DNA of 64,000 bases from Streptomyces sp. L2 (GTDB taxonomy: Bacteria; Actinomycetota; Actinomycetes; Streptomycetales; Streptomycetaceae). A model generated the notes under the pieces. It was not told the DNA's origin and made no database searches. It worked only from the letters and a program-made list of their open reading frames with translations. Numbering within the stretch: position 1 is the stretch's first letter; every line of letters starts with the position of its first letter. The position numbers and the translations under genes were made by a program. The stretch spans positions 124,001 to 188,000 of the forward strand of contig NZ_QBDT01000002.1 in the NCBI RefSeq assembly GCF_004124325.1, in the 5' to 3' direction. Shown in pieces: positions 7,976 to 60,179 of the stretch.

Positions 7976-8004
7976 CGAACCGACGACCAGACAAGGACGA
8001 CCCA

Positions 8005-10619: not shown

Positions 10620-10815
10620 CTACATACCACCCAGTATGGCGGACACCGCACCACACGACCTGCACCTGCGCCGAAGGCACCTCTAGGATGAATACCCGGC
10701 CCCCGCTTGCGGCGGCCCTGACATCGCCGTCGGACATCAGCTGGTGTGCTGGCGCCACCGTGTGCACACGCCCCGTCCGGCACTGCTATAAACCAACCAA
10801 GGAGGGGCTGCAGCC

Positions 10816-26820: not shown

Positions 26821-27218
26821 GTTCACTGATCACCGAGGACGAGATCAGCTACGAGACGGAGCTCGTCTGGCTCGAAGACGTCAACTGCCTCGACTACGTC
26901 CGGCAAAGTCTCGACAGACTACCCAGCCGCCGGGGCAAGCCTGCCTATTACCGGGACGGCCGCATGGTGGGCTATGCCCAACTCGGGCCGAGGGCGAGAC
27001 CCTCACGTTCCTCCGGGACGTTCCGCCGTCGCGTGTTCTGGTTGCTTCCCCATGACCGCGACAGCGTTCCCGACGGTCTGTACGCCAGTGGCGCTCCTGC
27101 CGAAGCCATTGATCCGCGGACCCTCGCTCCCGGGGACAAGGGCCGCAAGACGGAGCGCTCCGAAGGGGGCCCGCCCTCGCCCGCAGTGCAGGAACTGGGC
27201 ATAGAACTCTCCTGGTGA
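26817..27218 (+). CDS. Small conserved protein of the replication module, copy 2
   Basis: 133 residues, ATGA overlap with the helicase gene, so it belongs to a three-gene replication operon. It is clearly paralogous to the protein at 10816 (LDYVRQSLD, YYRDGRMVGYAQL, RRRVFWLLPHDRDSVPDGLY, PRTLAPG). The C-terminal 25 residues differ. There is no recognised family. Tight coupling to the helicase suggests a copy-control or helicase-loading role, by inference. Confidence 0.75.
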   Translation: MSSLITEDEISYETELVWLEDVNCLDYVRQSLDRLPSRRGKPAYYRDGRMVGYAQLGPRARPSRSSGTFRRRVFWLLPHDRDSVPDGLYASGAPAEAIDPRTLAPGDKGRKTERSEGGPPSPAVQELGIELSW

Positions 27219-34210: not shown

Positions 34211-34402
34211 CTGCGGTCCTCCTAGATCAACAGGTGTCATGCGTAGCCACTTATTTCGACACGTTTTCAGATGATTTATTACGTGATACCAAGATTTTTC
34301 CCTCTTCGTCGATAGCGTTCCGCTGGCGTGCACACGCGGACCTCCGCCGCGCCGGACGAAAGACCGGTGGCTGGGCCGGGGGTGAAGGAGAGGAAACCGT
34401 CG
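34211..34402. promoter_or_regulatory. Divergent promoter region of the envelope-stress locus
   Basis: These 192 bp separate the Asp23 operon from the ECF sigma operon and are AT-richer on the Asp23 side (TTTCAGATGATTTATTACGTG). Promoters for both must lie here. Self-activation by the ECF sigma factor is likely but no motif is certain. Confidence 0.5.
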
Positions 34403-34987
34403 ATGCCAGAGCAGCGGGACAGATCCCCGGACACCGCAGAGGACGAATGGCGCGAGGACTCCCTGCTGGCGGTCAGGGCGGGAGAGGGGGACGAGGACGC
34501 GTTCGAAGCGCTGGTACGCCGCCACGGACCCATGTTGTTACAGATGGCCACACGATTACTCGGTGACAGGACTGAGGCGGAGGACGCCGTCCAGGAGGCG
34601 TTCGTCAGCGCATGGCGGAAATTACCGGAGTTTCGCGGAGAATCATCATTCGGCACCTGGATGTACCGGATCGTCACCAACAGGTGCATGAACGTATTGC
34701 GCGCGCGACGCGCGGTCACGACGCTGGACGCGGTACCCGAACCGCCGGCTCCAGACCACCAGGTCTCCCCGACCCGTGCGGTGGAGGCCCAGGCGGCCGT
34801 CGAGGCCCTGTCGCAGGCCATGAGCGTGCTCTCGCCCGAGCAGCGGGTGTGCTGGGTGCACAGAGAGCTGAACGGGTTGTCGTACGAGGCGATCGCGGAG
34901 ATCGTTGGAATCAGTCAGGAGGCGGTCCGTGGACGCGTCTTCCGTGCACGACGCCAACTGACGGAGGCGATGGTCGCATGGCGATGA
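34403..34987 (+). CDS. ECF RNA polymerase sigma factor with three TTA codons
   Basis: 194 residues from the ATG at 34403 with AAGGAGAGG 9 bp upstream. Region 2 is seen in VRAGEGDEDAFEALVRRHGPML and AEDAVQEAFVSAWRKLPEFRGESSFGTWMYRIVTNRCMN. Region 4 is seen in LSPEQRVCWVHRELNGLSYEAIAEIVGISQEAVRGRVFRARRQL. In-frame TTA codons lie at 34538, 34556 and 34622. In Streptomyces TTA needs the bldA tRNA, so translation should be developmentally limited. The stop overlaps the next gene, whose product looks like a matching anti-sigma factor. Confidence 0.9.
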   Translation: MPEQRDRSPDTAEDEWREDSLLAVRAGEGDEDAFEALVRRHGPMLLQMATRLLGDRTEAEDAVQEAFVSAWRKLPEFRGESSFGTWMYRIVTNRCMNVLRARRAVTTLDAVPEPPAPDHQVSPTRAVEAQAAVEALSQAMSVLSPEQRVCWVHRELNGLSYEAIAEIVGISQEAVRGRVFRARRQLTEAMVAWR

Positions 34988-41739: not shown

Positions 41740-41831
41740 CATTTCGACTCTCGCTTCAAATACAGCGCCCCCCGGTCGCATATGTATCGTAAGACCGGGG
41801 GGCAAGCGTAACAACGAGATCAGAGGAAACC

Positions 41832-42161
41832 ATGGGAACTGAAATCCGTTTTGAAGAGCTGGACCTGCTCATGGGTGAGGTGCTGCCCGAACGCACGGTC
41901 ATGGGCAACGTGGTCGTTCCGTTAGGCTTCGGCGGCGCCCACGACGGCCACGCCGTTGCCGCCGACGGCGGCGCGAGCAGTGCCAGCGCTTCTGCCGCTG
42001 GTGGCGGTGGCGGTGGTCCGTTCGGCGGTGGCATCTTCGGTGGCATGTTCGGCGGCGGCAGCCACAGCGACACGGTTCAGTCGACCTGTCAGTCCATCGG
42101 CCAGGGCCAGAGCACTGTGCCCAGCCTCACCTGCATGCCGGCCACGATCCGCAGCTACTGA
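41832..42161 (+). CDS. Gly-rich precursor-like peptide (candidate RiPP)
   Basis: 109 residues with GAGGAAAC before the ATG. There is no signal peptide. The first 30 residues are acidic and leader-like (FEELDLLMGEVLPERTVMGN). A Gly/Ala/Ser stretch follows (GGGGGGPFGGGIFGGMFGGG, about residues 57-76). The last 32 residues form a distinct tail with two Cys (STCQSIGQGQ ... SLTCMPATIRSY). The layout (leader, Gly-rich linker, C-terminal core) and the next gene, a protease with a PqqD/RRE-like domain, suggest a ribosomal peptide that is cleaved or exported. No modifying enzyme besides the protease is visible. Confidence 0.7.
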   Translation: MGTEIRFEELDLLMGEVLPERTVMGNVVVPLGFGGAHDGHAVAADGGASSASASAAGGGGGGPFGGGIFGGMFGGGSHSDTVQSTCQSIGQGQSTVPSLTCMPATIRSY

Positions 42162-42195
42162 CGCTGAGCTCTTGATTCCTTCGCGTCGGAGAACA

Positions 42196-42229
42196 GCCGG
42201 GGGAGACCTGCATGTTCGTCTCTCCCGGC
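42196..42229 (+). terminator. Terminator after the Gly-rich peptide gene
   Basis: GCCGGGGGAGAC (42196-42207) pairs with GTCTCTCCCGGC (42218-42229) with one G-T wobble and a 10-nt loop, 35 bp after the stop. It may allow partial read-through into the protease gene. Confidence 0.6.
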
Positions 42230-42289
42230 TCTCCGCGGCCGCTTGAAAGCCCGTTCCGGGTCTGCGGGTCCCGGATGCGGGCCGCCGAT

Positions 42290-42316
42290 CGCCCCAGCGG
42301 CACAGCCGCTGGGGCG
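42290..42316. terminator. Second hairpin between peptide and protease genes
   Basis: CGCCCCAGCGGC (42290-42301) and GCCGCTGGGGCG (42305-42316) form a perfect 12-bp stem with a 3-nt loop. The rest of 42162-42667 shows no supportable gene and probably holds the protease promoter. Confidence 0.55.
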
Positions 42317-42667
42317 TGACGGTGGAAAGCGCGCCGCGTGGCAGACACCGCAGCAGATGGGATACCCCTCTCGGGCGTGTGATGCGCATCGGACCGCGTG
42401 TCGGGTCAGCCGTCCGTGCCCGGAGAAGCCCGCAGCGACTGGGCACCTTGACCGCCCAGCACCCTCTACGACCGTGAAGCCCTGCCTTTGCGGCGCTGCC
42501 GACGATGCGGTCGCGTGCGTCACACCGTCCTTCACGTGGCGCGCCTTCCCGGCCAGTACGCCGCCGCACCCGGCGCTCGAAGCGGCACAAGCTGTGAGAG
42601 AGGGCTGGAGCACTCGTCTACGGCAGGCCGGATGACGCCTCGTCTCCCCCTCACTCTGGAGAGCTCC

Positions 42668-44059
42668 ATGGGCCAACCGTCAGTGACACCCACCGGCACG
42701 GGCGCCCCCTCCGTATCAGCGCGGCCGTCCGGGAGCAGCGGCGATGCGCGCCCCACTTTGGCCGAGGGCACCGAACTGGTAGGCGAGTTCGAGGGCTCCG
42801 GCTACCGGGAGCCGCCCCAGTTGGTCGCCCGTTCTGATGGGCAACTCGTACGGCTTCCCGGGCTGTTGTACACCGTCGCCAAGTTGCTTGACCGTCACTC
42901 CGCCCCTGACGGCGAACGGCCCGGAGGCGGCGGTCCCACCGTGGCTCATATCGCCGCCGCGCTCAGCGAGGAAACCGGACGGCTGTACACCGCCGACCAT
43001 GTGACCTTTCTCGTTGACCAGAAACTGGCACCCCTCGGGATCACCACCTATTGCGACGGCTCACCGCCCCCGCCCGTCGCCAAGGCCGACCCGTTCCTCG
43101 CCTTCCGGTTCCGCATGGCGGTTCTCTCGGAGGAAGTGACGTGGTTCCTGGCCGGCCTGTTCGCGTGGCTGCATCGGCCGGTAGTGGCTCTCCTGGCCGT
43201 CCCGGCGTTCTTCGCCGGCGAAGTCTGGTTCTGGATGCAGGACACAGCGGGTGCGCTGCAGGCTGTCCTCTTCGCTCCGACCAGCTTTCTGCTGGTCGTC
43301 TTCCTCGCCGTTGTCTCCTGTGTCTTCCATGAGATGGGGCACGCCTCGGCGTGCCGGTACGGCGGGGTCCGACCGGGAAGCATGGGGTGCGGCGTTTACC
43401 TGGTGTGGCCGGCCTTCTACACCGACATCACCAACTCCTACCGGCTGGGACGCGGCGGTCGTCTGCGCGCCGACCTGGGCGGTGTCTACTTCAACGCGGT
43501 CTTTGCCAACCTTCTGGTCCTGGCGTATCTGACGACTGGCTTCTCACCGTTGCTGGTGGCGATCCTCTCGGTCAATCTCGAGATCTTCCAGCAGCTTTTG
43601 CCCACGCTCCGGTTCGACGGCTACTACATCATCGCTGATCTGGTGGGTATCCCGGACCTCTTCAAGTACATCGGTCCCATCATCCGGAGCGTGCTCTTCC
43701 GCAAGCCCCGGGACGAACGTCTGCAGGCCCTCAAGCGCTGGCCCCAGGCGGTCGTGACGGTGTGGGTGGTGTGCGTCGTTCCGGCGCTCGCCCTGCAACT
43801 GGGCTACGTGGTCATGCAACTGCCTCGGCTCATTCAGGTCGACTGGCAGCAGATCCAGGTCCTCGTCGTGAATGCCGCGGCTTCCGGTGACTATGTGATG
43901 GCAGGGGCCTCCGCAGTCCAGATCCTGTTGCTGATTCTGCCGGTCGCCGGGCTCACGGTCGTGGTGATGCAGTTGCTCAGGGGTGTCTTCCGCTTCGCCC
44001 GCCGGCGGCTGGGTTCCAGTGAGGCGATGGCCGGCAAGGTTGTCCCGGCGGAATCCTGA
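42668..44059 (+). CDS. M50 (site-2-type) membrane metalloprotease with PqqD/RRE-like domain
   Basis: 463 residues from the ATG at 42668 (GGAGAG 5 bp upstream). Residues about 35-125 (LVARSDGQLVRLPGLLYTVAKLLDRH ... VAHIAAALSEETGRLYTADHVTFLVDQKLAPLGI) follow the PqqD-type winged-helix pattern used to bind RiPP leaders. A membrane domain follows with VVSCVFHEMGHASACRYGG (HExxH zinc site) and, after more spans, LRFDGYYIIADLVGIPDL (the third ligand region). At least six hydrophobic segments are seen. Known relatives are called peptide zinc metalloproteases in bacteriocin-type clusters. The likely substrate is the adjacent Gly-rich peptide (inference). Confidence 0.8.
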   Translation: MGQPSVTPTGTGAPSVSARPSGSSGDARPTLAEGTELVGEFEGSGYREPPQLVARSDGQLVRLPGLLYTVAKLLDRHSAPDGERPGGGGPTVAHIAAALSEETGRLYTADHVTFLVDQKLAPLGITTYCDGSPPPPVAKADPFLAFRFRMAVLSEEVTWFLAGLFAWLHRPVVALLAVPAFFAGEVWFWMQDTAGALQAVLFAPTSFLLVVFLAVVSCVFHEMGHASACRYGGVRPGSMGCGVYLVWPAFYTDITNSYRLGRGGRLRADLGGVYFNAVFANLLVLAYLTTGFSPLLVAILSVNLEIFQQLLPTLRFDGYYIIADLVGIPDLFKYIGPIIRSVLFRKPRDERLQALKRWPQAVVTVWVVCVVPALALQLGYVVMQLPRLIQVDWQQIQVLVVNAAASGDYVMAGASAVQILLLILPVAGLTVVVMQLLRGVFRFARRRLGSSEAMAGKVVPAES

Positions 44060-44176: not shown

Positions 44177-44872
44177 ATGGGGGACACGCTTAAGAGAAGT
44201 GCTGTCATGCTTGGAGTGGCAGGGTTACTGGCGCCGCTCACACTCGCACTGGGCGCCGCGCCCGCGCAGGCCGCGAGCTGCACGACGAAGGCGGGGCCGT
44301 ACCAGAAGAAGGTGGAGAAGTTCCTCGGCCGCCCGGTCGACGGCCGGCAGTCCAGCACCGACTGCAAGGCCATCCGCGCCTTTCAGACCAAGCACGGCAT
44401 CACCCCGAACATCGGCTACGCGGGTCCGGTCACCTGGGGTGTGATGGACCTCATGAACAAGCAGAAGGCGGTCGGGAAGAACCCCAACAAGGCCGGCAAG
44501 TGCCCGGTGAACAAGGGCCGGATCGCCTGCGTGAACCTCACGCTCCAGCTCAGCTGGATCCAGGACGGCAAGAAGCTCGTCTACGGCCCGGTGCCGGTGC
44601 GCACCGGCCGCAACGGCTACGAGACCCGGACCGGCCTGAAGAAGATCTACTGGCGCCACATCGACCACGTCTCGACCCTCTACAACGTGCCCATGCCCTA
44701 CAGCCAGTTCTTCGACGGCGGTGAGGCGTTCCACTCGGTCGGCCTCAGCATGTGGAGCCCGCCGGGCTCCCGCGGCTGCGTCAACATGACCCGGACCACG
44801 GCCAAGAAGTACTGGTCGCTGCTGCACAACGGCGACGACGTCTACGTGTACGGCCGCAAGCCCGGCACCTGA
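44177..44872 (+). CDS. L,D-transpeptidase (YkuD) with N-terminal peptidoglycan-binding domain
   Basis: 231 residues. A signal peptide (GVAGLLAPLTLALGAAPAQAA) is followed by a PG_binding_1-like domain (VEKFLGRPVDGRQSSTDCKAIRAFQTKHGI) and a YkuD domain. The catalytic motif is SPPGSRGCVNM with active Cys, preceded by HSVGLSMW, where His is the partner. Such enzymes make 3-3 crosslinks or attach proteins to peptidoglycan outside the membrane. It is convergent with the monooxygenase gene (25-bp gap) and probably unrelated to that cluster. Confidence 0.85.
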   Translation: MGDTLKRSAVMLGVAGLLAPLTLALGAAPAQAASCTTKAGPYQKKVEKFLGRPVDGRQSSTDCKAIRAFQTKHGITPNIGYAGPVTWGVMDLMNKQKAVGKNPNKAGKCPVNKGRIACVNLTLQLSWIQDGKKLVYGPVPVRTGRNGYETRTGLKKIYWRHIDHVSTLYNVPMPYSQFFDGGEAFHSVGLSMWSPPGSRGCVNMTRTTAKKYWSLLHNGDDVYVYGRKPGT

Positions 44873-44897: not shown

Positions 44898-46094
44898 TCA
44901 CGTGGGAGCGAAGGTCAGCAAGGACAGGTTCTGACGGTAGAGGACAGGCGCCGGAGTCCAGCGCAGATACGCCCCGCGCAGCATGCACGGCAGCGGACGT
45001 TCGTACTGCTCGATCACGCTCAGCCTGTGAGAGAGGCGCACCATGCGCCGTGCCCGGTCCCGGCGCAGGGACTCGTAGGTACGCAGGCCCTGTCGGGGGC
45101 AGGCCGATCCGGCGAGGCTGCGAGCCAGGACGACCGCGTCCTCCACCGCGGTGCCCGCCCCTTGACCGAGGCTGGTCAGCATGGGGTGAGCCGCGTCTCC
45201 GAGGAGCGTGACGGGACCTTCGCCCCAGCGTTCGAGAAAGGGCCGGTCCTGAGCCGGCACGCTGACGATCGCCTCCTCCGGCGTGATCCGGATCGCCTCC
45301 TGCACCTCGTCCGCCCAGCCGGTGAAGGCCCGGGCGACCTCGTCCTTCCCGCCGTTCCACCCGCGCGCGGCCGAGGGAGGCATGTTCTTCGTGCCCCACC
45401 AATAGGCTCTGCCATGCCCGATGTCGACGAGTCCGAAGCGTCGGCCGGAACCCCAGTAGTGGCGTACGCAGCCCGCGGTGAACCGGGGATGCGAGAAGGG
45501 TGTCGTCGCCAGCCAGCAGACATACCCGTGTTCGCGTGGCTCCTCGGGGCCGGTCAGTTGCCGGCGCACCACGGAGCGCAAGCCATCGGCGCCGATCAGC
45601 ACGTCGCCGTGTGCCTCGTAGCCGTCCGTGAACCGCACGCGGACGCCGTCAGCGGTGGGTCTGAAGTCGACCGCGGAGGCACCGAGCCGTACGGATCTGT
45701 CGCCGAGTTTCTCAAGGAGCGCCTGCTGCAGGTCGGCCCGGTGGATGTTGACGCTCGGGGCTCCGAGCCGTTCACCGATCTCCTTCAGAGGCAGCTTCCT
45801 GACCGGGCGTCCGCCGGCATCGAGGAAGTGGAAGGTCTCGATGGATCGACCGCGCCGTTCCAGTCCGAGGTCGATGCCGATGGAGCGCAGCGCGGTGAGC
45901 GCGTTGCTCATGAGCGACAGCCCTGTCCCGGCCGGCCAAAGGTCACCGGCGCGCTCGTACACCTCGGCATCGATTCCGGCCCGGCGCAGGGCGACGGCGG
46001 CGGTGAGGCCGCCGATGCCCGCACCGATGATGATCGCCTTGGGCGCGCGTCCCGACGCCGTTGTTCTCTTCCCGCCAGTCTGCGCCCTGTTCAC
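44898..46094 (-). CDS. FAD-dependent monooxygenase, PxaB/LgnC-like
   Basis: 398 residues from a GTG at 46094, overlapping the NRPS stop as GTGA, so the two are co-translated. The FAD fold is complete: AIIIGAGIGGLTAAVALRRAGIDAEVYER (GxGxxG), VLIGADGLRSVVRRQL (DG motif), and VTLLGDAAHPMLTSLGQGAGTAVEDAVVLARSL (GD motif). This is the group A hydroxylase type. In pyrrolizixenamide and legonmycin pathways such an enzyme performs a Baeyer-Villiger oxidation of the bicyclic dipeptide released by the NRPS, leading to ring contraction. The same gene order here supports that role. Confidence 0.85.
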   Translation of the reverse strand: MNRAQTGGKRTTASGRAPKAIIIGAGIGGLTAAVALRRAGIDAEVYERAGDLWPAGTGLSLMSNALTALRSIGIDLGLERRGRSIETFHFLDAGGRPVRKLPLKEIGERLGAPSVNIHRADLQQALLEKLGDRSVRLGASAVDFRPTADGVRVRFTDGYEAHGDVLIGADGLRSVVRRQLTGPEEPREHGYVCWLATTPFSHPRFTAGCVRHYWGSGRRFGLVDIGHGRAYWWGTKNMPPSAARGWNGGKDEVARAFTGWADEVQEAIRITPEEAIVSVPAQDRPFLERWGEGPVTLLGDAAHPMLTSLGQGAGTAVEDAVVLARSLAGSACPRQGLRTYESLRRDRARRMVRLSHRLSVIEQYERPLPCMLRGAYLRWTPAPVLYRQNLSLLTFAPT

Positions 46095-49000
46095 GCGGTC
46101 ACCTCGTCGATGCGTCGCGCCACGACCGAGACGTACGGTTCCGTCATGAGCCGGAGGTGGTCGCCGGGTACGTCGATCACGTCGACGCGGCCCCGAGTCC
46201 ACGCCGTCCAGCCGTTGGCCGGGTCGCGGTGCGCGCTGCCGACGGCTTGGTGAGCCGGCTCCAGGGCCTTGGGCAGCGGCCCGGTCGCGCGCAGCAGTGT
46301 GAGGTCCTGATCGCACACGTCCGGGCGGTAGTCGATCAACGCCTGCCAGTTGGCCCGGAACACCTGGAAGAGACGACGTACGCGACCGGGTGAGGCACCG
46401 CGAGGCAGGACGCCCGCTTCCAGCGCGCGCCGCAGAATGTGGTCGAAACGTTCCTGCTCGCTCAGCCCCGGCGGCAGCGCCTGTGCCGGGGTGTTGGCGC
46501 CGCCGTCCAGTGACAGCAGTTCCCACAGGAACCACTCGGCCAGTTGCTCCTCGGCCACGTCGTGGTACGTGCCCGGGGTGATCGAATCCAGTAGCACGAG
46601 GCGATCGACGACCTCGCCGGAGGCCTTCAGCTGCCGGGCCATCTCGAAGGCCACGAAACCGCCGAACGACCATCCACCCAGCCGGTACGGGCCGGAGGCC
46701 CGCACGTCACGGATGGCTTCCACATAGCTGCGCGCGAGGGCGGGGACGTCGCTCAGCGGCCGAGTTCCCGGTTCGGCCCCTGCCGCCTGCAGCGCGTAGA
46801 CCGGCTGTTCCCCCGGAAGCAGGCGCGCCAGCCGCTCGTAGCACAGCACGTTGCCGCCGATGGGATGGACCAGGAACAGGGGCGGCCGGGAGCCGGATGT
46901 CCGCATCGGCACCAGGGGGTCGAAGGTCGTCACCGCCTTCTTCTCGCGCAGCCGGCCGGCGAGTGCCGCGACCGTGGGTGTCTCGATGAAGGCGGACAGC
47001 GGGACACCGACCCGGTACCGCTTCTCGATCATCGTGACAAGACGCATGGCTGTCAGCGATGTCCCGCCGAGCTGGAAGAAGTTCTCGTGCACCCCGGGCG
47101 CCGGGATCTGGAGCAGGTCGGACAGCATCTCGGCCAGTCCGCTCTCGTACTCGTCACGCGGTGGCACATGCGCGGCGGCCGGCGCGGCCGGCGCCAGCGG
47201 CAGAGCGCGCAGTGCGGCATCGTCCCGCTTGCCACTCGGGGTCAGCGGCAGACTCGGCACCCAGGCGAACCGGGATGGGATCATGTACTCGGGCAGCGTG
47301 GCCCGCAGCCGCCGTACGATGTCGCCGAGATCGACCGAGGCTTCGCCACCCACCAGGAACGCGGCGAGAAAGGCCGGGGCGCCTTCCGGCCGGCGGGCTG
47401 TGACCGCGACCTCGCGCAGGGCGGACTGGTGCGCGGCCGCCTTCCTGATGGCCAGCTCCACCTCGCCGGGTTCGACGCGGAAGCCGCGGATCTTCACCTG
47501 GGTGTCCGTCCGTTCCAGGCACACGACGGCGCCGCCGGGCAGCACCCGGGCCAGGTCGCCGGTCCGGTAGAGCCGGGTGCCGCTGGGGTGAGTGACGAAG
47601 CGCTCCCGGGTCAGCCCGGGTTCTCCTTCGTAGCCCTCGGCGAGGCAGGCGCCACCGAGGTAGATCTCGCCCTTCGAGCCCTCGGGAACCGGACGCAGCC
47701 ACTCGTCCAGTACCCGCACCTCGACGCCGTCGATGGGGCGTCCGATCGGCGGGAGGTCCGGGAATCCGGCCGGGTCCCCCGTCAGCGGGAAACTGGTCAC
47801 CACATGGGTCTCCGTCGGCCCGTACTGGTTTTCCAGCAGGCAGCCGGGCAGCGCGGCGCACAGCCGGCGAATCTCGTGCGTCACCCGCAGTTGCTCGCCC
47901 GAGGAGATCAGTACGCGCAGCCGGCGCGGACGCAGGCCCAGCGCCGTGGCGGCCTCGGCGAATTGCTGCAGGGCGACAGCGGGGAGGAAGACCCGGTCCA
48001 CGCCCTCCCTGTCGAGTAGGCGCAGCAGCTCGGGCATGGTGCGGCGCTGTTCCTCGGAGACCAGGAGGAGGGTGCCGCCGCCGCAGAGGGTGGAGAAGAT
48101 CTCCTGGAACGAGACGTCGAAACCGAGTGGTGCGAACTGAAGCGTGGTGCCGCCAACGGCGCCGCTCGGTGTCCGGTTCTGCCATGCGACGAGGTTGGCC
48201 AGTGCGCGGTGCGGCATGGCCACGCCCTTCGGCCGGCCCGTGGAGCCGGAGGTGAAGAGCACGTAGGCGATGCTCTCCGGCGGGATGGGCGGCAGCGGGG
48301 GTTCACTCGCGTTCGTGCCGCACTTCGTGGGAGCGAGGAGCGACTCGGTGGACACCACGTCCGAGCCCTCGGGCACCAGGTGGGCGTGCTCCGCGTCCGC
48401 GACGACACGGAACGGCCTGGTCCGGGCGAGGATGCCGGCGATCCGGTCCTCCGGGTAGCTGACGTCCAGGGGAACGCAGGCGGCGCCCGCCTTGGCGATG
48501 CCCAGGACCACGGCGAGCATCCCGGGCGATCTGTCCATGGCGATCCCGATGCGGGCCCCGGGGGGCGCGCCCATGGAGAGCAGCCGCCGTGCCACCCGGT
48601 CGGCGGCCCGGTCCAGCTCCTCGTACGTCCAGCGGTCTTCGGCCATGGAGGCGGCGATCGCGCGGGGCGTATACAGGACCTGGCGCTCGAACCGGCGTAC
48701 GACGTCATCGGCTTCCTCCGCGAGGAAGCCGAAGCCCGGCTTCTCGTGCGGGTGGTCCACGATCCGCCGCAGGATCTCGGCGTAGCGGCGTCCGAACAGA
48801 TCGGCCTGGGACGAGGTGAATACGCGGCCATCGCCGTCGATGCGCAGCTCCAGGTGGCCGTCGCGGGGATCGGTGATGGCGTTCACCAGGAGCGGGAAGT
48901 TCGTCTGCTCCCAGATCTCGACCCCGTCCACACGCAGGCAAGCGGTACGCAGGAGCGCTCCGAGGACATGAAAGTTGACATAGTTGAACGCGGTCCGCAG

Positions 49001-52000
49001 TACGGCATCACCGTCCCGCTGGATCGCACTGAGCGGATAGCGCCGGTAGGGGTGGCTCTCGCGCTCGCCGCGCTCCACCTCACGTACGGTTTCGAGCCAG
49101 CTGCGCGCGCTGCCGCCCAGCCGCACCGGAATCGTGTTCAGGAACAGTCCTGCGGTCCGCTCCGAGCCGGCCTCGTCCGGGCGGCCATGAGTGACCAGTC
49201 CGGTGGTGACCTCGCCCGGCCCCTGAAGCAGCCTCAGGGTGAGACAGTGGGCCGCCAACAGCACGGACTTCACCGGCATTTCGTGGACGCGCGCGAAGCT
49301 GCGCACCGCCGCCGTGAGCCGTTCGGGCAGCGCGACGTGCCGTACGACAAGACCGGAGTCACCCGCGGCCTCGTGCGGCCGGAAGCCGTCCGGGCACGCG
49401 GACGACGACTCACGAAGCGCCTCGTCCCAGAACCGCCGGTTGTCCTCGGAAGCAAGAGCGCGTCGCTCGTCGCGCACATGGGCCGCGAACGAAGGGAGGG
49501 GCATGTCGGGCACAGGGGCGATGTCCTTACCGATGGCATGCAGATAGTCCTGGAGCAGCTCGCCGATCAGATTCGCCACGCTCCACCCGTCCAGCAGCGC
49601 GTGATGGAAGCTGAAGACCAGGTCCACGGCACCGGATGGCACGAGGTGCACGCGGAACAGGCACAGGGGTGGCCGGTCGAACACGTATGGGTGGTAGCGC
49701 CGGTGTTCGATGTGTGCCCGGACGTCGGCCTCGGCCTTCTCGGCGGACGCCGAGCGCAGATCGGTGATCTCCAGGCTGTCGCCGGCCTGAGCCGGTGGGT
49801 GTACGACCTGCAGTGCCTGGGAGAACCCGGACAGGCGGAATGAGGAGCGCAGGACCGGATGGCGGACGAGCAGCCGCTCGTGGCATCGCCGGAACGCGGC
49901 TTCGTCCCAGGGCAGCCGGAGGACGTAGCGGAACACGTCGTGGTAGACGGACGATCCCTCGAAGGCACGGCTGTGATACAGCATCCCGAGCTGCAGCCGG
50001 GTGGCCGGGTACGCGTCCTCGGCGTCCGCGAGCCCGGCCCGATCCGCCCTGTGCACAAGGTCGAAGGGCTTCAGCACGGCGTCCGCGCTCGCCTCGGCGG
50101 CGGCCGTGGACGCGTGTGCGGCCAGCCCGGCGACGGTCGGACGACGGAACATGTCGCTCAACGTGAAGCGGAGTCCGCGTTTTTCCGCCTCCGCGCGGAC
50201 CCTGAGCATCAGAATCGAATCCCCGCCGAGCGCATGGTAATTGTCGTGGATTCCCACAAAGTCCACGTCCAGCACCTCGCGCCAGACAGCGGCGAGCGTC
50301 GCCTCGGCCGCGTTCCGCGGCTCGTCACCCGGAGAACTGGCGCGACCCGGCGGAGAACTGGCGCGCGAGGGGGCGGGAAGAGCCCGCAGGTCGGCCTTGC
50401 CGTTCGGGGTCAGCGGAATCCGGTCGATACGCACGAAGCGCGCCGGGATCATGAACTCCGGCAGCATCATGCCGAGATGGGAGCGCAGTGACGCGGGGTC
50501 GATGTCCTCGCCGGCGACGTAGTAGCCGACGAGATACGCGCCGCGTGAGGGTGACGTGTGAGCGCTGACCGCCGCGCCGCGCACTCCGGGGAAGGCGGCC
50601 AGCCGGCTCTGCACCTCACCGAGTTCCACGCGGTTGCCGCGGATCTTCACCTGCTCGTCGATCCGGCCGAGGTACTCCAGTGTGCCGTCGGCCAGCCACC
50701 GCGCGAGGTCGCCCGTGCGGTACATGCGCTCCCCGGGAAAGAAGGGGTCCGCCACGAATGCCTCGCGGGTCAGTTCGGGACGTCCCAGGTAGCCGCGGGC
50801 GAGACCGGCACCGGCCACGCACAGTTCGCCGGGTGCGCCGACGGGCTGGGGAGCGTTGTGCCGGCCCAGCACATACAGCCGCGTGTTGTCGATCGGACGG
50901 CCGATGGGCACTCTCCGCGGGGCCTCGGCCGGTTCAGCGAAGCAGGGATTTCCGGCGTGGGGTGAGAGGTCGGCGTACGACACGTCGACCGTGGCCTCGG
51001 TCGGGCCGTAGAGATTGACCAGACGTGGCGCGGATGTCCCGGACCGGGCGAACACCCGGTGAAAGCGTGCGACGAGATCGGCTCCGAGGGCTTCGCCGCT
51101 GCAGAAGACGGTGCGCAGATGCCCGATACGCGCTGGCAAAGCGCGGTCGCTTTCCAGCAGTTCGAGGAAGGGGCCGAACATCGACGGCACGAAGTGCACC
51201 ACCGTGACGCGCTGTTCGGCGACGGCGCGCAGGATCTCCGGTGGCTCCTTCTCCGCGCCCACGGGGAGCAGAGCCACGCGTGCGCCTGCGATGCCCCACC
51301 AGAACAGCTCCCATACGGAGACGTCGAAGGAACTGGGGGTCTTGTGCAGCACCACGTCGTCCGCGCCCAGCGGAAAGCGTTTCTGCATCCAGGCCAGACG
51401 GTTGAGCACCGAGTGGTGCTCAACCATCACGCCCTTGGGCCGTCCGGTGGAACCGGAGGTGTAGATGACGTAGGCGAGGCTGCGGGGTCCCGCTGTCTGT
51501 GCGGGAGGGCCGACCGGGTCCTGCGGGAGCGCGTCCAGAATGATCTCGCACGCCCCGGCAGCCGCGGACGGCATTGCGGGTCCGGCCCCACCACGAGCGT
51601 CCCGGCCGCTGGTCAGGACAGCCCGGGCACCGCTGTCGTCCAGCAGGAATCGGATGCGGTCCGCGGGATAGGACGGGTCTACCGGTACATAGGCGCCACC
51701 GGCCTTCAGCACGCCGAGAAGTGCCGCCAGCAGCTCAGGGCCGCGTTCCACCAGCACGGCCACCCGGTCATCGGGGCGTACTCCTTCGGCCCGCAGCCGC
51801 CGGGCGACGTGGTTGGCGCGGGCGTCGAGGCCGGCGTATGTCACCGCCGGGTGTGAGTCGCCGGCGGCGACGGCGATGCGGTCGGGTGTACGGCCGGCCT
51901 GTTCCTCGAACAGGCTGTGCAGCGTCGTGTCACTCGGGTACGGGGCATCGGTCGCGTTCCGGGCCCGGACGAGGTCGTCGTGCTCCTCGGGGCTGATCAT

Positions 52001-53302
52001 CGGCAGGTTCGCCACCGGCTCCTCGGGCTGGTCCACCGCGTACCTGAGCAGCGTTTCGATGTGCCGTGCCGCCGCCTCGACGGGGAAGTCCTCGTCGAAG
52101 ACATCAAGCGCGTAGTCGAGGTCGATCCGTATGTCCCCGGCGTCTTCGAACTCGCGGACATGGACGGCCAGGGCGTCCTGGCCGTGGCCGTTCGGCAGGG
52201 GCAGCGTCTCGGTCGAAAGCCCGGTGGCGCTCTGGGGGGCGGGCAGGCGCAGATAGGAGAGGGTGACGTCGTAGAGGCGCCTGGGACCGGTGCCGTGCGA
52301 CGGCAGGGTGCGCAGCAGATCGCCGAGAGCCAGCCGCTCACGGCGCTTCATCATGAAGGCGGCCGCCTCCACCTGATCGGCCATGTCCTGCATGGATCTC
52401 TCGCCGTGTGCGGCCAGACGGAGCGGAAGCATGCTGGCGAAATTCCCGACGGTTCGCTTCTCCGCTCTGCCGTGGCGGTTGAGAAAAGGAACCCCGAGCC
52501 CCACCTCCTCACATCGGTGCACCCGGGACAGATACGTCGCGACTGCGGCCGTGAGGAAGGCGAAGACGGATGAACGCTTCCGTTCGCGGATTCGGTCGAT
52601 GAGTTTCCGCTCAAGGGTGAACGTGTGGCGTGCACTGCGTCGGTGACCATTCGAAGTGCTGCCCGGCGACCTCACGGGAAAGAGCGGGGGACTGAAGTCC
52701 GCGAAGATGTCCCGGCAGAAGTCCCGGTCTCGGCACCACTGCGGCGAACCCCGGTACCGCGCTTCCTCTTCGGCGAACGTGAGGTACGAGGGCGGGGCGG
52801 TTTTCAGGGCGGTTTCCGTCGGCACGGCGGGCGCGTAGTCCGAGATGATCTGCCGCGCGAACTGATCCAGACCCCAGCCATCGGCGATGATGTGATGCGC
52901 CATCAGGAAGAGGTAACCGACTGACTCGCTCTCACGAAGCAGTGCGATGTCGAACGGCTGTCCGCCGTCCAAAGGGAGGGGGCGGACAGCCGCACGCTTC
53001 ATCCAGTCCAGACAGGCGGCTCGTGCATCGTCTGCCAGGGAAAAATCGATGACCTGTATCTCGGGGACGTCGTCTCCGGCCCACTGGACGGGAATTCCGT
53101 CATGCTCTGCGAAGCGGAGTAGGAACGCATCATTACGTCGAACGGCTCGCCGGCAAGACTGCTCCAGGGCGTGAAAATCGATCTCGCCGGAAAGTCGTAA
53201 AGCGCCGCCGATATTGAATGCGGGTGTACCGGGGTGGCGCCAGCTTGCAGCCCATATGTCCCGCTGGTACGCCGTCAGTGAAACCGGCGATGCCGAACTC
53301 AT
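46091..53302 (-). CDS. Two-module NRPS C-A(Ser)-PCP-C-A-PCP-TE, PxaA/LgnB-like
   Basis: 2403 residues from the ATG at 53302 with GAAGGGA upstream. Order: starter-type condensation (HHIIADG at about 136-142), adenylation 1 (YVIYTSGSTGRPKGVM), carrier (YHALGGDSILML), condensation 2 (SFHHALLDGWS), adenylation 2 (YVLFTSGSTGRPKGVA), carrier (FFQLGGTSLTAM), thioesterase (LGGWSFGGFVAFEMAR). Aligning with GrsA gives code D-V-W-H-F-S-L-V-D for A1, very near serine codes, and D-V-Q-F-I-S-Q-V-V for A2, nearest to proline codes (less sure). An N-terminal C domain fits fatty-acyl loading. With the monooxygenase this matches acyl-Ser-Pro bicycle assembly (pyrrolizidine or brabantamide type). A TTA codon lies at residue 35. 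Confidence 0.9.
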   Translation of the reverse strand: MSSASPVSLTAYQRDIWAASWRHPGTPAFNIGGALRLSGEIDFHALEQSCRRAVRRNDAFLLRFAEHDGIPVQWAGDDVPEIQVIDFSLADDARAACLDWMKRAAVRPLPLDGGQPFDIALLRESESVGYLFLMAHHIIADGWGLDQFARQIISDYAPAVPTETALKTAPPSYLTFAEEEARYRGSPQWCRDRDFCRDIFADFSPPLFPVRSPGSTSNGHRRSARHTFTLERKLIDRIRERKRSSVFAFLTAAVATYLSRVHRCEEVGLGVPFLNRHGRAEKRTVGNFASMLPLRLAAHGERSMQDMADQVEAAAFMMKRRERLALGDLLRTLPSHGTGPRRLYDVTLSYLRLPAPQSATGLSTETLPLPNGHGQDALAVHVREFEDAGDIRIDLDYALDVFDEDFPVEAAARHIETLLRYAVDQPEEPVANLPMISPEEHDDLVRARNATDAPYPSDTTLHSLFEEQAGRTPDRIAVAAGDSHPAVTYAGLDARANHVARRLRAEGVRPDDRVAVLVERGPELLAALLGVLKAGGAYVPVDPSYPADRIRFLLDDSGARAVLTSGRDARGGAGPAMPSAAAGACEIILDALPQDPVGPPAQTAGPRSLAYVIYTSGSTGRPKGVMVEHHSVLNRLAWMQKRFPLGADDVVLHKTPSSFDVSVWELFWWGIAGARVALLPVGAEKEPPEILRAVAEQRVTVVHFVPSMFGPFLELLESDRALPARIGHLRTVFCSGEALGADLVARFHRVFARSGTSAPRLVNLYGPTEATVDVSYADLSPHAGNPCFAEPAEAPRRVPIGRPIDNTRLYVLGRHNAPQPVGAPGELCVAGAGLARGYLGRPELTREAFVADPFFPGERMYRTGDLARWLADGTLEYLGRIDEQVKIRGNRVELGEVQSRLAAFPGVRGAAVSAHTSPSRGAYLVGYYVAGEDIDPASLRSHLGMMLPEFMIPARFVRIDRIPLTPNGKADLRALPAPSRASSPPGRASSPGDEPRNAAEATLAAVWREVLDVDFVGIHDNYHALGGDSILMLRVRAEAEKRGLRFTLSDMFRRPTVAGLAAHASTAAAEASADAVLKPFDLVHRADRAGLADAEDAYPATRLQLGMLYHSRAFEGSSVYHDVFRYVLRLPWDEAAFRRCHERLLVRHPVLRSSFRLSGFSQALQVVHPPAQAGDSLEITDLRSASAEKAEADVRAHIEHRRYHPYVFDRPPLCLFRVHLVPSGAVDLVFSFHHALLDGWSVANLIGELLQDYLHAIGKDIAPVPDMPLPSFAAHVRDERRALASEDNRRFWDEALRESSSACPDGFRPHEAAGDSGLVVRHVALPERLTAAVRSFARVHEMPVKSVLLAAHCLTLRLLQGPGEVTTGLVTHGRPDEAGSERTAGLFLNTIPVRLGGSARSWLETVREVERGERESHPYRRYPLSAIQRDGDAVLRTAFNYVNFHVLGALLRTACLRVDGVEIWEQTNFPLLVNAITDPRDGHLELRIDGDGRVFTSSQADLFGRRYAEILRRIVDHPHEKPGFGFLAEEADDVVRRFERQVLYTPRAIAASMAEDRWTYEELDRAADRVARRLLSMGAPPGARIGIAMDRSPGMLAVVLGIAKAGAACVPLDVSYPEDRIAGILARTRPFRVVADAEHAHLVPEGSDVVSTESLLAPTKCGTNASEPPLPPIPPESIAYVLFTSGSTGRPKGVAMPHRALANLVAWQNRTPSGAVGGTTLQFAPLGFDVSFQEIFSTLCGGGTLLLVSEEQRRTMPELLRLLDREGVDRVFLPAVALQQFAEAATALGLRPRRLRVLISSGEQLRVTHEIRRLCAALPGCLLENQYGPTETHVVTSFPLTGDPAGFPDLPPIGRPIDGVEVRVLDEWLRPVPEGSKGEIYLGGACLAEGYEGEPGLTRERFVTHPSGTRLYRTGDLARVLPGGAVVCLERTDTQVKIRGFRVEPGEVELAIRKAAAHQSALREVAVTARRPEGAPAFLAAFLVGGEASVDLGDIVRRLRATLPEYMIPSRFAWVPSLPLTPSGKRDDAALRALPLAPAAPAAAHVPPRDEYESGLAEMLSDLLQIPAPGVHENFFQLGGTSLTAMRLVTMIEKRYRVGVPLSAFIETPTVAALAGRLREKKAVTTFDPLVPMRTSGSRPPLFLVHPIGGNVLCYERLARLLPGEQPVYALQAAGAEPGTRPLSDVPALARSYVEAIRDVRASGPYRLGGWSFGGFVAFEMARQLKASGEVVDRLVLLDSITPGTYHDVAEEQLAEWFLWELLSLDGGANTPAQALPPGLSEQERFDHILRRALEAGVLPRGASPGRVRRLFQVFRANWQALIDYRPDVCDQDLTLLRATGPLPKALEPAHQAVGSAHRDPANGWTAWTRGRVDVIDVPGDHLRLMTEPYVSVVARRIDEVTA

Positions 53303-54088
53303 GAGCGTCCCTTCAAAAGCAATCAGTGAATCGGAGTAATGTGTCGTGAAGGGAAACGAAACCATGCGGATAATGCCAGGGGCAAGCTGCCGCGACAATG
53401 GTGTGGTTGACCCGTCGGGTCTGGTTCGGTCACCGAACAATGACCGGTGGCGGGCACGTCGTTCGCCGCGGAGACGGACGTCACAGTGTGGACGGCAGCA
53501 CCTCGGCGCGCAACGGCGAGCAGCCGCCGCCGGTGCAGGTGACCAGGCGTTCTCGTACTACCCGGCCTAGACGGGAGCCGTTCGATGCGCGCGGCGGCAG
53601 CCGGCGGCTGAGCGTGGTGGTTCGGCGCGGAGAGCAGTGCGAAGGCGGCTCGGTAGCGAGAACAATGCGACACAAAATGCGGATCGCACTCTTAATCGCC
53701 ACCATATTGACGCTCGAAGGTGCCGCAGCGCTTCTCAACAACGGATTCAGAACGTGATCCTCAGAGTTCCGAACATCGACGTCCTGCCTCCCGGAACTCC
53801 AAAAAGCCGAACGTGACAATGACATCATCAGGATGCTGAAGGTGTTAAACGGGCAAGGGGGGTGTGTTTACGTATAGACGCGTCAATAGGCGCAAAGAAA
53901 AGACCTCACCCTGAATCGTTCGAAGACGCACACAGACTGGGGCGAGTGGCGCAACTGGGCCAGTGAGACCGCCACATATTAGAGTCCCGCATGCGATAAG
54001 GCCGGCCTGGAGCAGGAAGAGCGGCGAGCGCCGAAGCTCGCCCTGTACCTGGGCGACCGCGACGTCCCCGACCCGATGGGCAAGGCCG
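53303..54088. other. Intergenic region between regulator and NRPS
   Basis: About 790 bp with no convincing gene. The NRPS promoter and likely LAL-regulator binding sites lie here. A 30-codon frame starting near 53665 (MRHKMRIALLIATIL) is too short to support. Confidence 0.4.
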
Positions 54089-57423: not shown

Positions 57424-58347
57424 ATGGATACAATGAGTGAAGAAACTGAGCCCTATGACCTGATCGGCGTGGGGATCGATGCGTTCGGCGCGAGCCTTGC
57501 CGCTCTGGCCGAACCTGCGCCCGACCTCCGTGTTCTTTTCCTTGAGAGGCAGCCGCGCTTCCAGTGGGGGCCAGGGGTGCGCCTGGACTCTGGGCACCCC
57601 TGCATTTCTATGCTGGCGGACCTGGTAACCCTTGCAGACCCCACCAGCAGATGGTCGTTCCTCGCGTACCTGCACACACGCGAGCGCTTGTACCCTTTTC
57701 TGTCGCTGCGGCGTTTCCATATCTCCCGTATGGAATACGACCACTATTGCCGATGGGTCGTCAGATCCCTGCCCGCCTGCGCTTTTGGCCAGTCGGTCCG
57801 GTCGATCCACTGGAGCGAGGAGGATGGGCTCTTTCACGTCGAGCACACGGATCCAGACGGCCGAAGTGCCGTACGCCGAGCCGTCAACGTTGTGCTCGGT
57901 ACAGGGGGCGGGCTCCCGAAGCACGGGCCGGAGTGCATCCTTCCGCACTGTGCCGATGCGGTGGCCGGTGATGTCAGTGACCCGTTTCACGCAAGCGTGA
58001 CGGACCGATGCCTGCCGCTCTCGCGTCCCGATTTCCTCGACCCCATGGTGCCCTTCATCGAATGGGACGACCTGGGCCGTTTCCGAGTCGACTCCACCCT
58101 CCGTGCCGCCCTCGCACCCTGGATCCGCGGATCGTTGTTCGTACATACCGCAGCGCTGCACCTCGACGGTTCTGGCCGTCCCGACCTTGGCCAGGCGGCC
58201 CGGGGCGGCGCGACCATCATCAACACGTTGCTCGGTCGCGAGCACTACGACATGCCCGGCCCCGGGGCGCCCGTGCCTGTGACGACGGCCTTTCCTCAGG
58301 AGCTCGGAGGCGATAGGGGAAGGAGACCGGCCGCTGTGGTCGACTAA
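57424..58347 (+). CDS. Internally shortened lysine/ornithine N-hydroxylase homologue
   Basis: 307 residues against about 430 for the family. The N-terminus (YDLIGVGIDAFGASLAALAEPAPDLRVLFLERQPRFQWGPGVRL) and HPCISMLADLVTLADPTSRWSFLAYLHTRERLYPFLSLRRFHISRMEYDHYCRWV clearly follow IucD/SidA-type enzymes. The FAD loop GxGxGPFN has changed to GVGIDAFG. After VVLGTGGG the central NADPH-binding region (about 120-130 residues) is missing and the sequence resumes at LGRFRVDSTL ... FVHTAALHLDGSGRPDLG, the C-terminal FAD part. It is intact as a reading frame but probably lacks classical N-hydroxylase activity. Confidence 0.7.
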   Translation: MDTMSEETEPYDLIGVGIDAFGASLAALAEPAPDLRVLFLERQPRFQWGPGVRLDSGHPCISMLADLVTLADPTSRWSFLAYLHTRERLYPFLSLRRFHISRMEYDHYCRWVVRSLPACAFGQSVRSIHWSEEDGLFHVEHTDPDGRSAVRRAVNVVLGTGGGLPKHGPECILPHCADAVAGDVSDPFHASVTDRCLPLSRPDFLDPMVPFIEWDDLGRFRVDSTLRAALAPWIRGSLFVHTAALHLDGSGRPDLGQAARGGATIINTLLGREHYDMPGPGAPVPVTTAFPQELGGDRGRRPAAVVD

Positions 58348-58419
58348 TCCCGTCATACTCCGATTCGCCAGGCCTCTTTATGTCCACTGACGGTCAATCA
58401 GCGGTAGGGCAGAGGTGGC

Positions 58420-59502
58420 ATGAGACCGGGCAAGCGTGGCATCTTCGCGGTGGCCGTCGCCATGGTGAGCGCGGTCACCGTGGTAGCGGCATCGGGCACA
58501 GCCTTCACGACTCCCGGCCCCGTACCGGCACCGCCCCCCGCCGCCCCCACGTCCTCGATCGTCCCGCAAGCGAATCTGGAGGACGTCCGTAAGCGGCTCG
58601 ACAAGCTCTACCACGACGCCGCTGTCGCCACGGACGCCTACGACGCCGCTGAGGAGGCGTCCAAGACGCAGGGAGCGCGAATCGCCGAGCTGTCCGGGAG
58701 GATCGCCACGGCGCAGCGGAAGCTGGCCATCCTGAAGGACCGGGCCGGTGCGGCGGCCCGGTCCCAGTACCGCACCGGTGGTCTGCCGCCCACGGCCGAG
58801 CTGCTGCTCAGCGACGACCCGCAGCAGTTTCTGGACGGGGCCGGCCGGGTGCTGCAGGGCCAGCGGGCGACGCAGAACCTGCTCGGCGAAATGACCCGCA
58901 CAGAGAAGGACTTACGGCGATACGCCGCAGCTGCCTCCGCACAGTGGAAGCGGCTGGAGGCCGACCGCGTGGCCAAGGCTGCCGCCAAGAAGGCAGTCCA
59001 GCGGCAGATCGACGAGGCGAAAAGGCTCGAGTCCCGGCTGGAGAAGAGGGAGAAGGAGAGGCTCGCCAAGCTGGAGCAGGAGGCCGCCCTGCGCGCGCAG
59101 ACGATCTGGCTGGGCACCGGCATCCTCAAGAAGGTCCGCGGCAAGGCGTCCGCGCAGGGCGAGGAGGCGGTGCAGTACGCCACGGCGCAGCTCGGCAAGC
59201 CGTACGTGTGGGGCGCGGAGGGGCCGGCCTCCTTCGACTGCTCGGGCCTGACCTCCCAGGCGTGGTCGGCGGCCGGCCATCCCATTCCGCGCACCTCGCA
59301 GGAGCAGTGGAAGCAGCTCAAGCACGTCGACGTGAAGGACATGCGCCCCGGCGACCTCATCATCTACTTCGGCGACGCCAGTCACGTCGCGATGTACGTC
59401 GGCGACGGCGCGATCATCCACGCCCCGCGTCCCGGCCGGACGGTGACGGTCGCGGGGGCGGGCTCCATGCCGATCCTGGGGGTCGTCCGACCGGACGCCT
59501 GA
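58420..59502 (+). CDS. NlpC/P60 peptidoglycan hydrolase with coiled-coil N-terminus
   Basis: 360 residues. A signal peptide (FAVAVAMVSAVTVVAASGTAF) is followed by a Pro-rich linker and a long coiled coil (about residues 50-230: LEDVRKRLDKLYHDA ... RLESRLEKREKERLAKLEQE). A C-terminal NlpC/P60 domain follows: FDCSGLTSQAW (catalytic Cys), RPGDLIIYFGDASHVAMYVGDG (catalytic His) and IIHAPRPG. These RipA-like enzymes cleave peptide stems during septation and growth. A TTA codon occurs at 58912 (KDLRRY). Confidence 0.9.
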   Translation: MRPGKRGIFAVAVAMVSAVTVVAASGTAFTTPGPVPAPPPAAPTSSIVPQANLEDVRKRLDKLYHDAAVATDAYDAAEEASKTQGARIAELSGRIATAQRKLAILKDRAGAAARSQYRTGGLPPTAELLLSDDPQQFLDGAGRVLQGQRATQNLLGEMTRTEKDLRRYAAAASAQWKRLEADRVAKAAAKKAVQRQIDEAKRLESRLEKREKERLAKLEQEAALRAQTIWLGTGILKKVRGKASAQGEEAVQYATAQLGKPYVWGAEGPASFDCSGLTSQAWSAAGHPIPRTSQEQWKQLKHVDVKDMRPGDLIIYFGDASHVAMYVGDGAIIHAPRPGRTVTVAGAGSMPILGVVRPDA

Positions 59503-59885
59503 GACCGTTTTGGTGGCGTTGGGGCGAGGCCGCGGGCCCACGTGGCGATCGGTGCCACGACCGGGGCGCCGTTGATGTCATCTGATCGCGTAGCCGAGCA
59601 AGGACTCTGTGGTGTATCGCCCGCAGTCGGCGCGGCCGGATACGGAGTGGTCACCGTTTTCCGGGTTGTAGCAGCGGTAGAGCGGCACCGACCCTGGCCT
59701 CCGGCTCGTGCTGCGCCCACCAGATGACCGTCGGCAGGTGTCCAGGGGTCGTCAACAGAGCCCCACCGACCGGCACTTGTACCTCAACGATCATGATTTG
59801 GCAATTGGTGTGACTGAATGGTTATCTCTGTTCGTCCGCCGGGTGACGGCGGTACCCATCGACACGCGAAAGAGGAATCCACCTG
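59503..59885. other. Intergenic region with promoter of the NRPS-PKS genes
   Basis: Apart from a short gene remnant on the minus strand (59578-59688), no coding sequence is seen. An AT-richer segment at about 59790-59835 (ATGATTTGGCAATTGG) is a likely promoter zone for the carrier-protein gene, whose GAGGAA site is at about 59870. Confidence 0.45.
59578..59688 (-). pseudogene. Remnant of the C-terminus of a secreted repeat protein
   Basis: A 36-codon stretch reads [19 protein letters not shown], then [17 protein letters not shown] and a stop. This matches the LYRCxNxxxGDH...GYxxxxLLGY tail found on many Streptomyces exoproteins (DUF5648-like). No start or upstream coding frame is present, so it looks like the decayed end of a lost gene. 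Confidence 0.4.
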
Positions 59886-60179
59886 ATGGCTGAGAGCGGC
59901 TCCTTAGTCGCGGACGGCGCCGTGCCGTCCGAGCCGTCCGTGCGGGAGGAGATAGCCCGGATCATCGGGGAAGTCCTCCGGCTCGACGACGTCGCACCCG
60001 ATGACGATTTCTTCGCCCTGGGCGGGCACTCCCTGACAGCGTCGCAAGTCAGCTCTCGGATCCAGCGGTCCCTGGGCGTCGAAGTGCCCCTGTCCGTCTT
60101 CTTCGAGCAACCCACCGTCCTCGGGCTCACCACCTACGTCATGACCGACGGCAGCACCGCACCAGGGCCGGCGGCGTGA
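59886..60179 (+). CDS. Free-standing peptidyl carrier protein
   Basis: 97 residues, GAGGAA before the ATG. The carrier motif DDDFFALGGHSLTASQVSSRI contains the phosphopantetheine Ser. It overlaps the NRPS gene by GTGA. Because the downstream NRPS begins with a condensation domain, this carrier probably presents the starter unit loaded by an enzyme in trans. A TTA codon occurs at 59904, the seventh codon. Confidence 0.9.
   Translation: MAESGSLVADGAVPSEPSVREEIARIIGEVLRLDDVAPDDDFFALGGHSLTASQVSSRIQRSLGVEVPLSVFFEQPTVLGLTTYVMTDGSTAPGPAA

Follow-up and report, generated by a model that had tools for sequence, protein, structure and literature searches.

The window under study is a 64,000-nucleotide stretch of Streptomyces sp. 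L2 (G000:C2:124001-188000), situated on a 295-kb contig (C2) of an 8.07-Mb genome assembled in two contigs, and two neighboring genes within it are the subject of this report. The first, which begins at an ATG with AGAGGAA directly 5' of it, encodes a peptide (type A) in which an acidic leader, a Gly-rich linker and a two-cysteine C-terminal core follow one another; the second, whose ATG at 42668 stands after GGAGA, encodes an M50 (site-2-type) membrane protease with an N-terminal domain that appears to be a recognition element (RRE) of the kind known from ribosomally synthesized and post-translationally modified peptides (RiPPs). Peptide and protease are a conserved pair, and we consider it likely that the peptide is the substrate of its neighbor, the RRE docking the leader and the protease cutting to release the cargo. 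An initial annotation, made from this sequence alone, had described the two genes as a RiPP-like system; its observation is confirmed here, and its interpretation partly supported (Table 1).

Table 1. Features of the peptide-protease locus, in window positions.
Feature	Position	Strand	Remarks
Type-A precursor peptide	41832..42161	+	109 aa
Leader, residues 1-26	41832..41909	+	motif F-x-E-L ... G-E-V-L-P-E-R-T-V-M-G (7 aligned sequences)
Two-Cys C-terminal core (C86, C101)	42060..42158	+	exactly two Cys in peptide
RRE-M50 (site-2-type) membrane protease	42668..44059	+	463 aa
RRE-like domain, residues 29-131	42752..43060	+	order strand-strand-strand-helix-helix-helix (predicted structure)
HExxH zinc motif HEMGH, residues 221-225	43328..43342	+	H221, E222 and H225 invariant in 55 sequences
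FDG motif, third presumed zinc ligand D317	43613..43621	+	invariant in 55 sequences
Perfect inverted repeat, 10-bp arms, 15-base loop	41768..41802		just 5' of peptide ribosome-binding site

The initial description of a two-cysteine peptide with an acidic leader and Gly-rich linker is confirmed. The peptide gene is not a chance open reading frame, because it has six relatives in the protein database (seven rows including itself), bears the mark of purifying selection, and is consistently paired with the protease. Median dN/dS ratios of 0.26 for the leader, 0.54 for the linker and 0.44 for the core, taken from 249, 250 and 262, respectively, of 262 related and non-independent pairs, identify the leader as the most constrained part. 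This leader carries six acidic and two basic residues in the window peptide; among 139 peptides that were selected by the leader motif itself, position -5, which lies outside the selecting motif, is leucine in 137. Exactly two cysteines are present in 133 of 142 peptides (window included, drawn from 82 of 87 loci), and in 126 of those 133 they are spaced by 23-27 residues, relative to which the 14-residue spacing in the window peptide is short. No hydrophobic segment was found in the window peptide (best 19-residue Kyte-Doolittle mean, 0.87), nor did any of the 142 precursors reach the mean of 1.6 over 19 residues taken to indicate a transmembrane helix (highest, 1.51). The seven aligned peptides terminate in Tyr or His, that of the window in Tyr. 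Pfam and NCBIfam place the window peptide in no family, returning merely a chance match, and the other peptides that were scanned are likewise without a family; a chaplin-like core was considered for the window peptide, for which Pfam gave no match. Judged by sequence, the division into leader and core fits the pattern of a RiPP precursor (peptide alignments comprised 15 and 23 sequences, both picked by hand). The RiPP label itself is unproven, because the only modifications indicated are cleavage and, perhaps, a disulfide.

The catalytic residues of the protease are intact, H221, E222, H225, F316, D317 and G318 being invariant in an alignment of 55 sequences (this and a second alignment of 15 were drawn from the 120 homologues listed). 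Five hydrophobic segments are evident, the HExxH at residue 221 falling within the segment 193-227, and M50/site-2 proteases are defined as membrane proteins that combine this motif with a DG motif distal to it. Among family models, Pfam PF02163 scores below its cut-off (12.9 vs 27.2 bits), and two NCBIfam intramembrane metalloprotease families score above PF02163 and still under their own cut-offs; NF041824 (daptide_HExxH) reaches 77.4 bits against a cut-off of 300, over residues 158-440 of the 523-aa frame, and NF058609 (epipeptide protease) 46.8 bits against 225. Homologues among the matches listed are named 'hypothetical', 'uncharacterized', or generically, for example 'peptide zinc metalloprotease'. 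The translation start required revision: the initial annotation had begun the protease at TTG 42488, which is a mere extension of the open frame, and since close relatives begin at the position of ATG 42668, the start was moved there.

The defining order of an RRE is three strands and then three helices (PMC12710340), and the N-terminal domain of the protease, when modeled alone, presents strands at 8-12, 23-26 and 32-35 and helices at 37-50, 64-75 and 81-95, an order reproduced in the full-length model. The domain model matches solved RREs structurally, such that the leader-binding domain proposed initially, for which a missing RRE fold had been named as counter-evidence, is indeed predicted. 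The PqqD profile PF05402, a model said to retrieve RREs incompletely (PMC7470986), matched one of 67 N-terminal domains with an E-value of 0.13 (window plus 66 of 69 dereplicated sequences; L073, L074 and L148 were dropped for long insertions). The domain thus appears, as a model, to be an RRE, with support from structure to which sequence profiles add none. A fold search with the full-length protease retrieved membrane helices only and was uninformative, the missing site-2 structures saying nothing about its fold, and a profile search of solved structures returned just a designed protein and weak matches. In nine of the related proteases listed (L036, L115, L117, L124, L128, L131, L136, L143, and L145) a Pro/Ser-rich C-terminal tail carries its own cysteine pair, a composition which suggests that this tail faces outwards.

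The pair recurs in other genomes. A scan of genome contigs with the single peptide produced 510 pattern matches and no relative, and an alignment of the protease was used successfully instead, recovering 361 relatives, of which the best 80 provide the locus counts. These 80 derive from Streptomyces, Actinomadura, Amycolatopsis, Saccharopolyspora, Actinomycetospora, Acidimicrobiia and a few other taxa. A precursor stands beside the protease in 78, and the remaining two (L091, L112) end at a contig edge; in 73 the precursor is a motif-bearing peptide encoded in the same orientation as the protease and no more than 3 kb upstream of it, to which are added one with masked bases inside the peptide (L084), two divergent (L146, L151) and two Cys-less (L149, L150). 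Five of 130 motif peptides lie outside that position; four of them are still beside the protease, and the fifth (L118) is an additional copy located 4.9 kb upstream. At many loci the peptide is present in two to six copies. Across these pairings the leader is constant, E-x-LP-x-[R/K]-x-x-[L/M]-[S/G], while the cargo varies. Within the genus, a type-A profile matched 15 of 392 genomes, and the 14 true matches are exactly the 14 genomes with a protease at least 53% identical to that of the window; because the genomes are related, these are not 14 independent events. The fifteenth match (G379) proved to be an ABC ATPase gene read in antisense, so that relatives of the peptide occurring without the protease, which the initial annotation had considered damaging to its proposal, were found in none of the 392 genomes at the thresholds used. 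One genome (G129) holds an extra peptide copy without an adjacent protease, and encodes three close proteases. In the same genome, type-A, type-B (see below) and protease copies with equal scores lie near both chromosome ends (L038 and L039, at ~137 kb and 8395 kb), an arrangement resembling terminal inverted repeats.

Hidden from the initial annotation, whose type-A pair stands, were the usual two-peptide form of the system and its wider family. Type B is a homologous second peptide with Tyr or Phe two residues before the first cysteine, and it differs from type A at the LPE[R/K] site of the leader, where 89 of 90 type-A peptides have Glu, and type B mostly Pro, Gly or Ala. Both types are found together at 55 of 80 loci, and type A alone at 19 (a separate count of both, 41 of 82, employed different motifs, loci and filters). 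In the genus, the type-B profile matches the same 14 of 392 genomes as type A, all of which have both. The type-B gene of the window strain (G000:C2:207788-208111, minus strand, 107 aa; L184 1321-1644) lies outside the window, 39.7 kb from the protease on the same contig and with no other protease nearby, and no type-B remnant was found within the window. In G228 the type-B gene (L040 9652-9885) carries an in-frame TAG stop; two genes that look chaplin-like by eye lie within ~5 kb of this locus.

Joint occurrence at 55 of 80 loci and in all 14 genus genomes with the system would suit a two-peptide bacteriocin, in which types A and B, both matured and exported by the protease, would kill in concert, and a precedent might be EpeP, which is thought to both cleave and export an antimicrobial peptide (PMC10885120). 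We judge this explanation unlikely: the loci share no immunity gene, the cores are recognizably conserved across genera, type A stands alone at 19 loci, and the cargo of sister families is Cys-less and includes long repeat proteins. Since no immunity gene is shared and the cores are conserved, a surface-acting or signaling peptide pair is a more likely product than a classical bacteriocin.

Little else travels with the pair. Clustering of genes at 88 loci, and matches at 95 related loci, revealed no third gene that recurs at a majority of loci in two or more genera: the most frequent cluster besides the pair occurs at 36 of the 88 (30 of these in Actinomadura), and an ABC-ATPase cluster at 11. 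The related loci have in common no modifying enzyme, exporter or immunity gene, and no sigma or anti-sigma gene. Within the window, Pfam detected no radical SAM, YcaO, lanthionine-cyclase or ABC-transporter family in the 45 proteins scanned (a few small predicted ORFs were unscanned), in agreement with the initial statement that no radical SAM enzyme, cyclase or ABC exporter lies nearby. These findings bear on whether the system is a conventional RiPP, in which the modifying enzyme and exporter would be encoded elsewhere and the protease would merely strip the leader as a last step. RRE-dependent enzymes usually cluster with their precursors, which argues against such dispersal, as do the want of any tailoring enzyme or exporter common to the loci, and the sharing of protease and leader by families with unrelated cargo. 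Dispersal is nonetheless made conceivable by the type-B gene ~40 kb from the protease, which indicates that parts of the system can be unlinked, and by the daptide protease MpaP, an RRE-site-2 fusion which acts with tailoring enzymes and with whose cluster ABC transporters co-occur (PMC10036551). On balance we regard the conventional route as improbable.

More improbable still, in our estimation, is a control module, in which the peptide would regulate the protease as inhibitor or sensor and, on the model of regulated intramembrane proteolysis, a different membrane protein would be the real substrate. Anti-sigma factors are common substrates of site-2 proteases (PMC10202637), and an ECF sigma gene is present in the window at 34328-34987, though matched at 4 of 95 related loci. 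Against this idea, the loci share neither a sigma nor an anti-sigma gene, and what is inherited together with the protease is a short peptide with a leader, whose two to six copies at many loci fit substrates better than a single regulator.

We return to the peptide as substrate, for which the following sequence of events may be envisaged. The RRE, on the inner side of the membrane, would bind the leader, and the intramembrane active site would cut near [L/M]-[S/G], either at the small residue with which the motif closes or immediately beyond it, where conservation drops. The remaining peptide, comprising the Gly-rich spacer and two-cysteine core, would be released on the outer side, where the cysteines may form a disulfide. 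At most related loci, a single protease would process homologous type-A and type-B peptides, which probably cooperate. The initial suggestion that the protease both recognizes and releases the peptide fits this scheme as a prediction, because of the conserved pair, the RRE model, and the lack of a common modifying enzyme or exporter.

Among known systems the nearest design is that of the daptides, whose MpaP resembles the window protease in carrying an RRE at the N-terminus of an intramembrane site-2 protease, in the homology of the protease domain, and in being accompanied by several short precursors per locus. Unlike daptides, the window pair was found with neither an oxidative decarboxylase nor an aminotransferase or methyltransferase: the DapB, DapC, DapD and DapM tailoring families were detected in none of the 45 window proteins, and none is common to related loci. 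Daptide precursors are described with the motif ELExMEAP and a C-terminal Thr (PMC10036551), from which the window leader motif and terminal Tyr differ. The epipeptide system (EpeP/YydH) likewise sets an M50 membrane protease beside a small precursor; it differs in that no radical SAM enzyme was found in the scanned window proteins, and in the RRE-like domain of the window protease, and a YydH/LiaK protease match over cut-off with a radical SAM partner, by which epipeptides are recognized, was not found. TMcins (TmcA/TmcP) also combine a site-2-clan protease, which removes the leader, with a precursor whose two conserved cysteines form a disulfide (preprint, PMC13252029). According to the same preprint, however, their precursor has a transmembrane helix, which the window peptide is without, their protease belongs to DUF3267 (PF11667, not matched in the window protease), and the cluster includes its own ABC transporter, an escort protein and, in staphylococci, an oxidoreductase. 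For each of these three systems at least one defining feature was thus tested and found missing. By analogy, the present system may work like all three. Lasso-peptide RREs have a leader motif different from that of the window. Their structures (TbiB1, PDB 5v1v and 5v1u; 6jx3) are chains of 85-88 residues, with no site-2 protease fusion and 11-16% sequence identity to the window domain. A search of the open-access literature by motif strings and topics found no paper on this family among the matches listed.

The pair belongs to a larger family, a second member of which resides in the same genome. There, at C1:4767597, a protease ~40% identical to the first carries a Pro/Ser/Thr-rich tail, and its system (C1:4766898-4769435; L152 6790-9435) comprises two tandem Cys-less peptides of ~72 aa with the leader AELLPGREALG, then a gene, exported by eye, whose cluster occurs at 13 of 20 related loci. 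The Cys-less peptide is found in 46 of 392 genus genomes, and a protease 39-44% identical in the same 46, as tallied from the two lists; it has 549 database relatives, of which the 120 listed are, if named at all, 'hypothetical' or 'uncharacterized', with a few as 'FXSXX-COOH protein', and Streptomyces avermitilis, a laboratory strain, carries the Cys-less sister peptide. Class-wide, the protease was detected in 58 of 394 sampled genomes, spanning 22 of 137 genera. From these 58 genomes, 20 loci were hand-picked for spread (one, L244, is a close same-genus relative), and an LP-x-[R/K] precursor lies directly upstream of the protease in 17; two are without upstream DNA, and in L243 none was seen. 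The search pattern was relaxed stepwise, the first version finding 6 loci and looser ones 17. As a control, the loosest pattern yielded 16 frames (40-350 aa) in 0.88 Mb of downstream-flank strand sequence, or ~0.03 per 1.7 kb searched, a rate which places 17 of 18 beyond chance. Leaders in this set include GEELPDREQMS and ALPDKEVVS; behind the second of these come AAPID-AVAANANV repeats, the frames being ~240 residues or longer. Long precursors of this type, with the leader ALP[DAN]KEV, stand beside the protease in L225, L228, L230, L231, L234-L238 and L241, in stop-to-stop frames of 243-539 residues whose starts are not fixed, and the three that were scanned (L231, L238, L241) had no Pfam or NCBIfam match over cut-off. 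On a protease tree of 105 of 106 rows (L142 absent), cargo types map onto clades with the smallest possible number of changes, three; the method cautions that long branches come together between the two subfamilies.

One leader type is shared by two-cysteine peptide pairs, Cys-less 72-aa peptides, and Asn/Ala-rich repeat proteins of a few hundred residues. A bolder reading would make the RRE-site-2 protease of actinobacteria a stand-alone machine for maturation and export, acting through a single leader type, x-x-LP-x-[R/K]-x-x-[L/M/V/A]-[S/G/T], usually after E-x, on unrelated cargo, which it would free of the leader and carry across the membrane with no Sec, Tat or ABC exporter; we offer this tentatively, as something possible and rather doubtful.

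The initial annotation had supposed a control element shared with three exported proteins nearby, and this was not borne out: the inverted repeat at 41768-41802 occurs once in the window and once in the whole genome, and no repeat family tied the upstream regions of the peptide and exported genes together among 20 of 32 direct and 25 of 49 inverted families. The repeat is a possible operator or hairpin. Some perfect 9-bp inverted repeat, of other sequence, lies within 110 bp upstream of 29 of 132 peptide genes (window included), a count with no chance control. In Actinomadura (L103, L104, L107, L111, L120, and L130) an inverted repeat with the arm GGAAGGGCT recurs 62-83 bp upstream of the peptide start, similar in position to that of the window and unlike it in sequence. 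A promoter and terminator scan gave no signal above shuffles. For the three exported neighbors, tblastn (E 1e-3) returned nothing at 95 related loci, by which they were ruled out as parts of the system (earlier gene clustering of related loci took in one of the three). Just downstream of the protease, 44177-44872 encodes an L,D-transpeptidase (YkuD), probably exported, that also gives a weak peptidoglycan-binding match; at the 95 loci it was unmatched. Further downstream, non-ribosomal peptide synthetase genes and a lysine/ornithine monooxygenase (46091-53365, 57424-63436) form a region that we would guess to be siderophore-like. Elsewhere in the window, a ParA-like gene and a Prim-Pol / D5 / DUF6009 module that is present twice (5343-6428, 7951-11199, 24185-27218) suggest that contig C2 is plasmid-like.

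As found described, for daptides, the RRE-site-2 protease fusion is the last step of a multi-enzyme tailoring pathway (PMC10036551). In contrast, the protease and its leader-bearing cargo here are the whole of the unit that stays together. If the relationship proposed is true, it would explain many unannotated genes and define a leader code, while providing a minimal system in which to study how an RRE steers an intramembrane protease, and export of the product by such a protease would become directly testable. More broadly, because the pairing recurs in many actinobacteria with changing cargo and a constant leader, this association, so far without a name, may represent a general route by which small proteins are cut and released.
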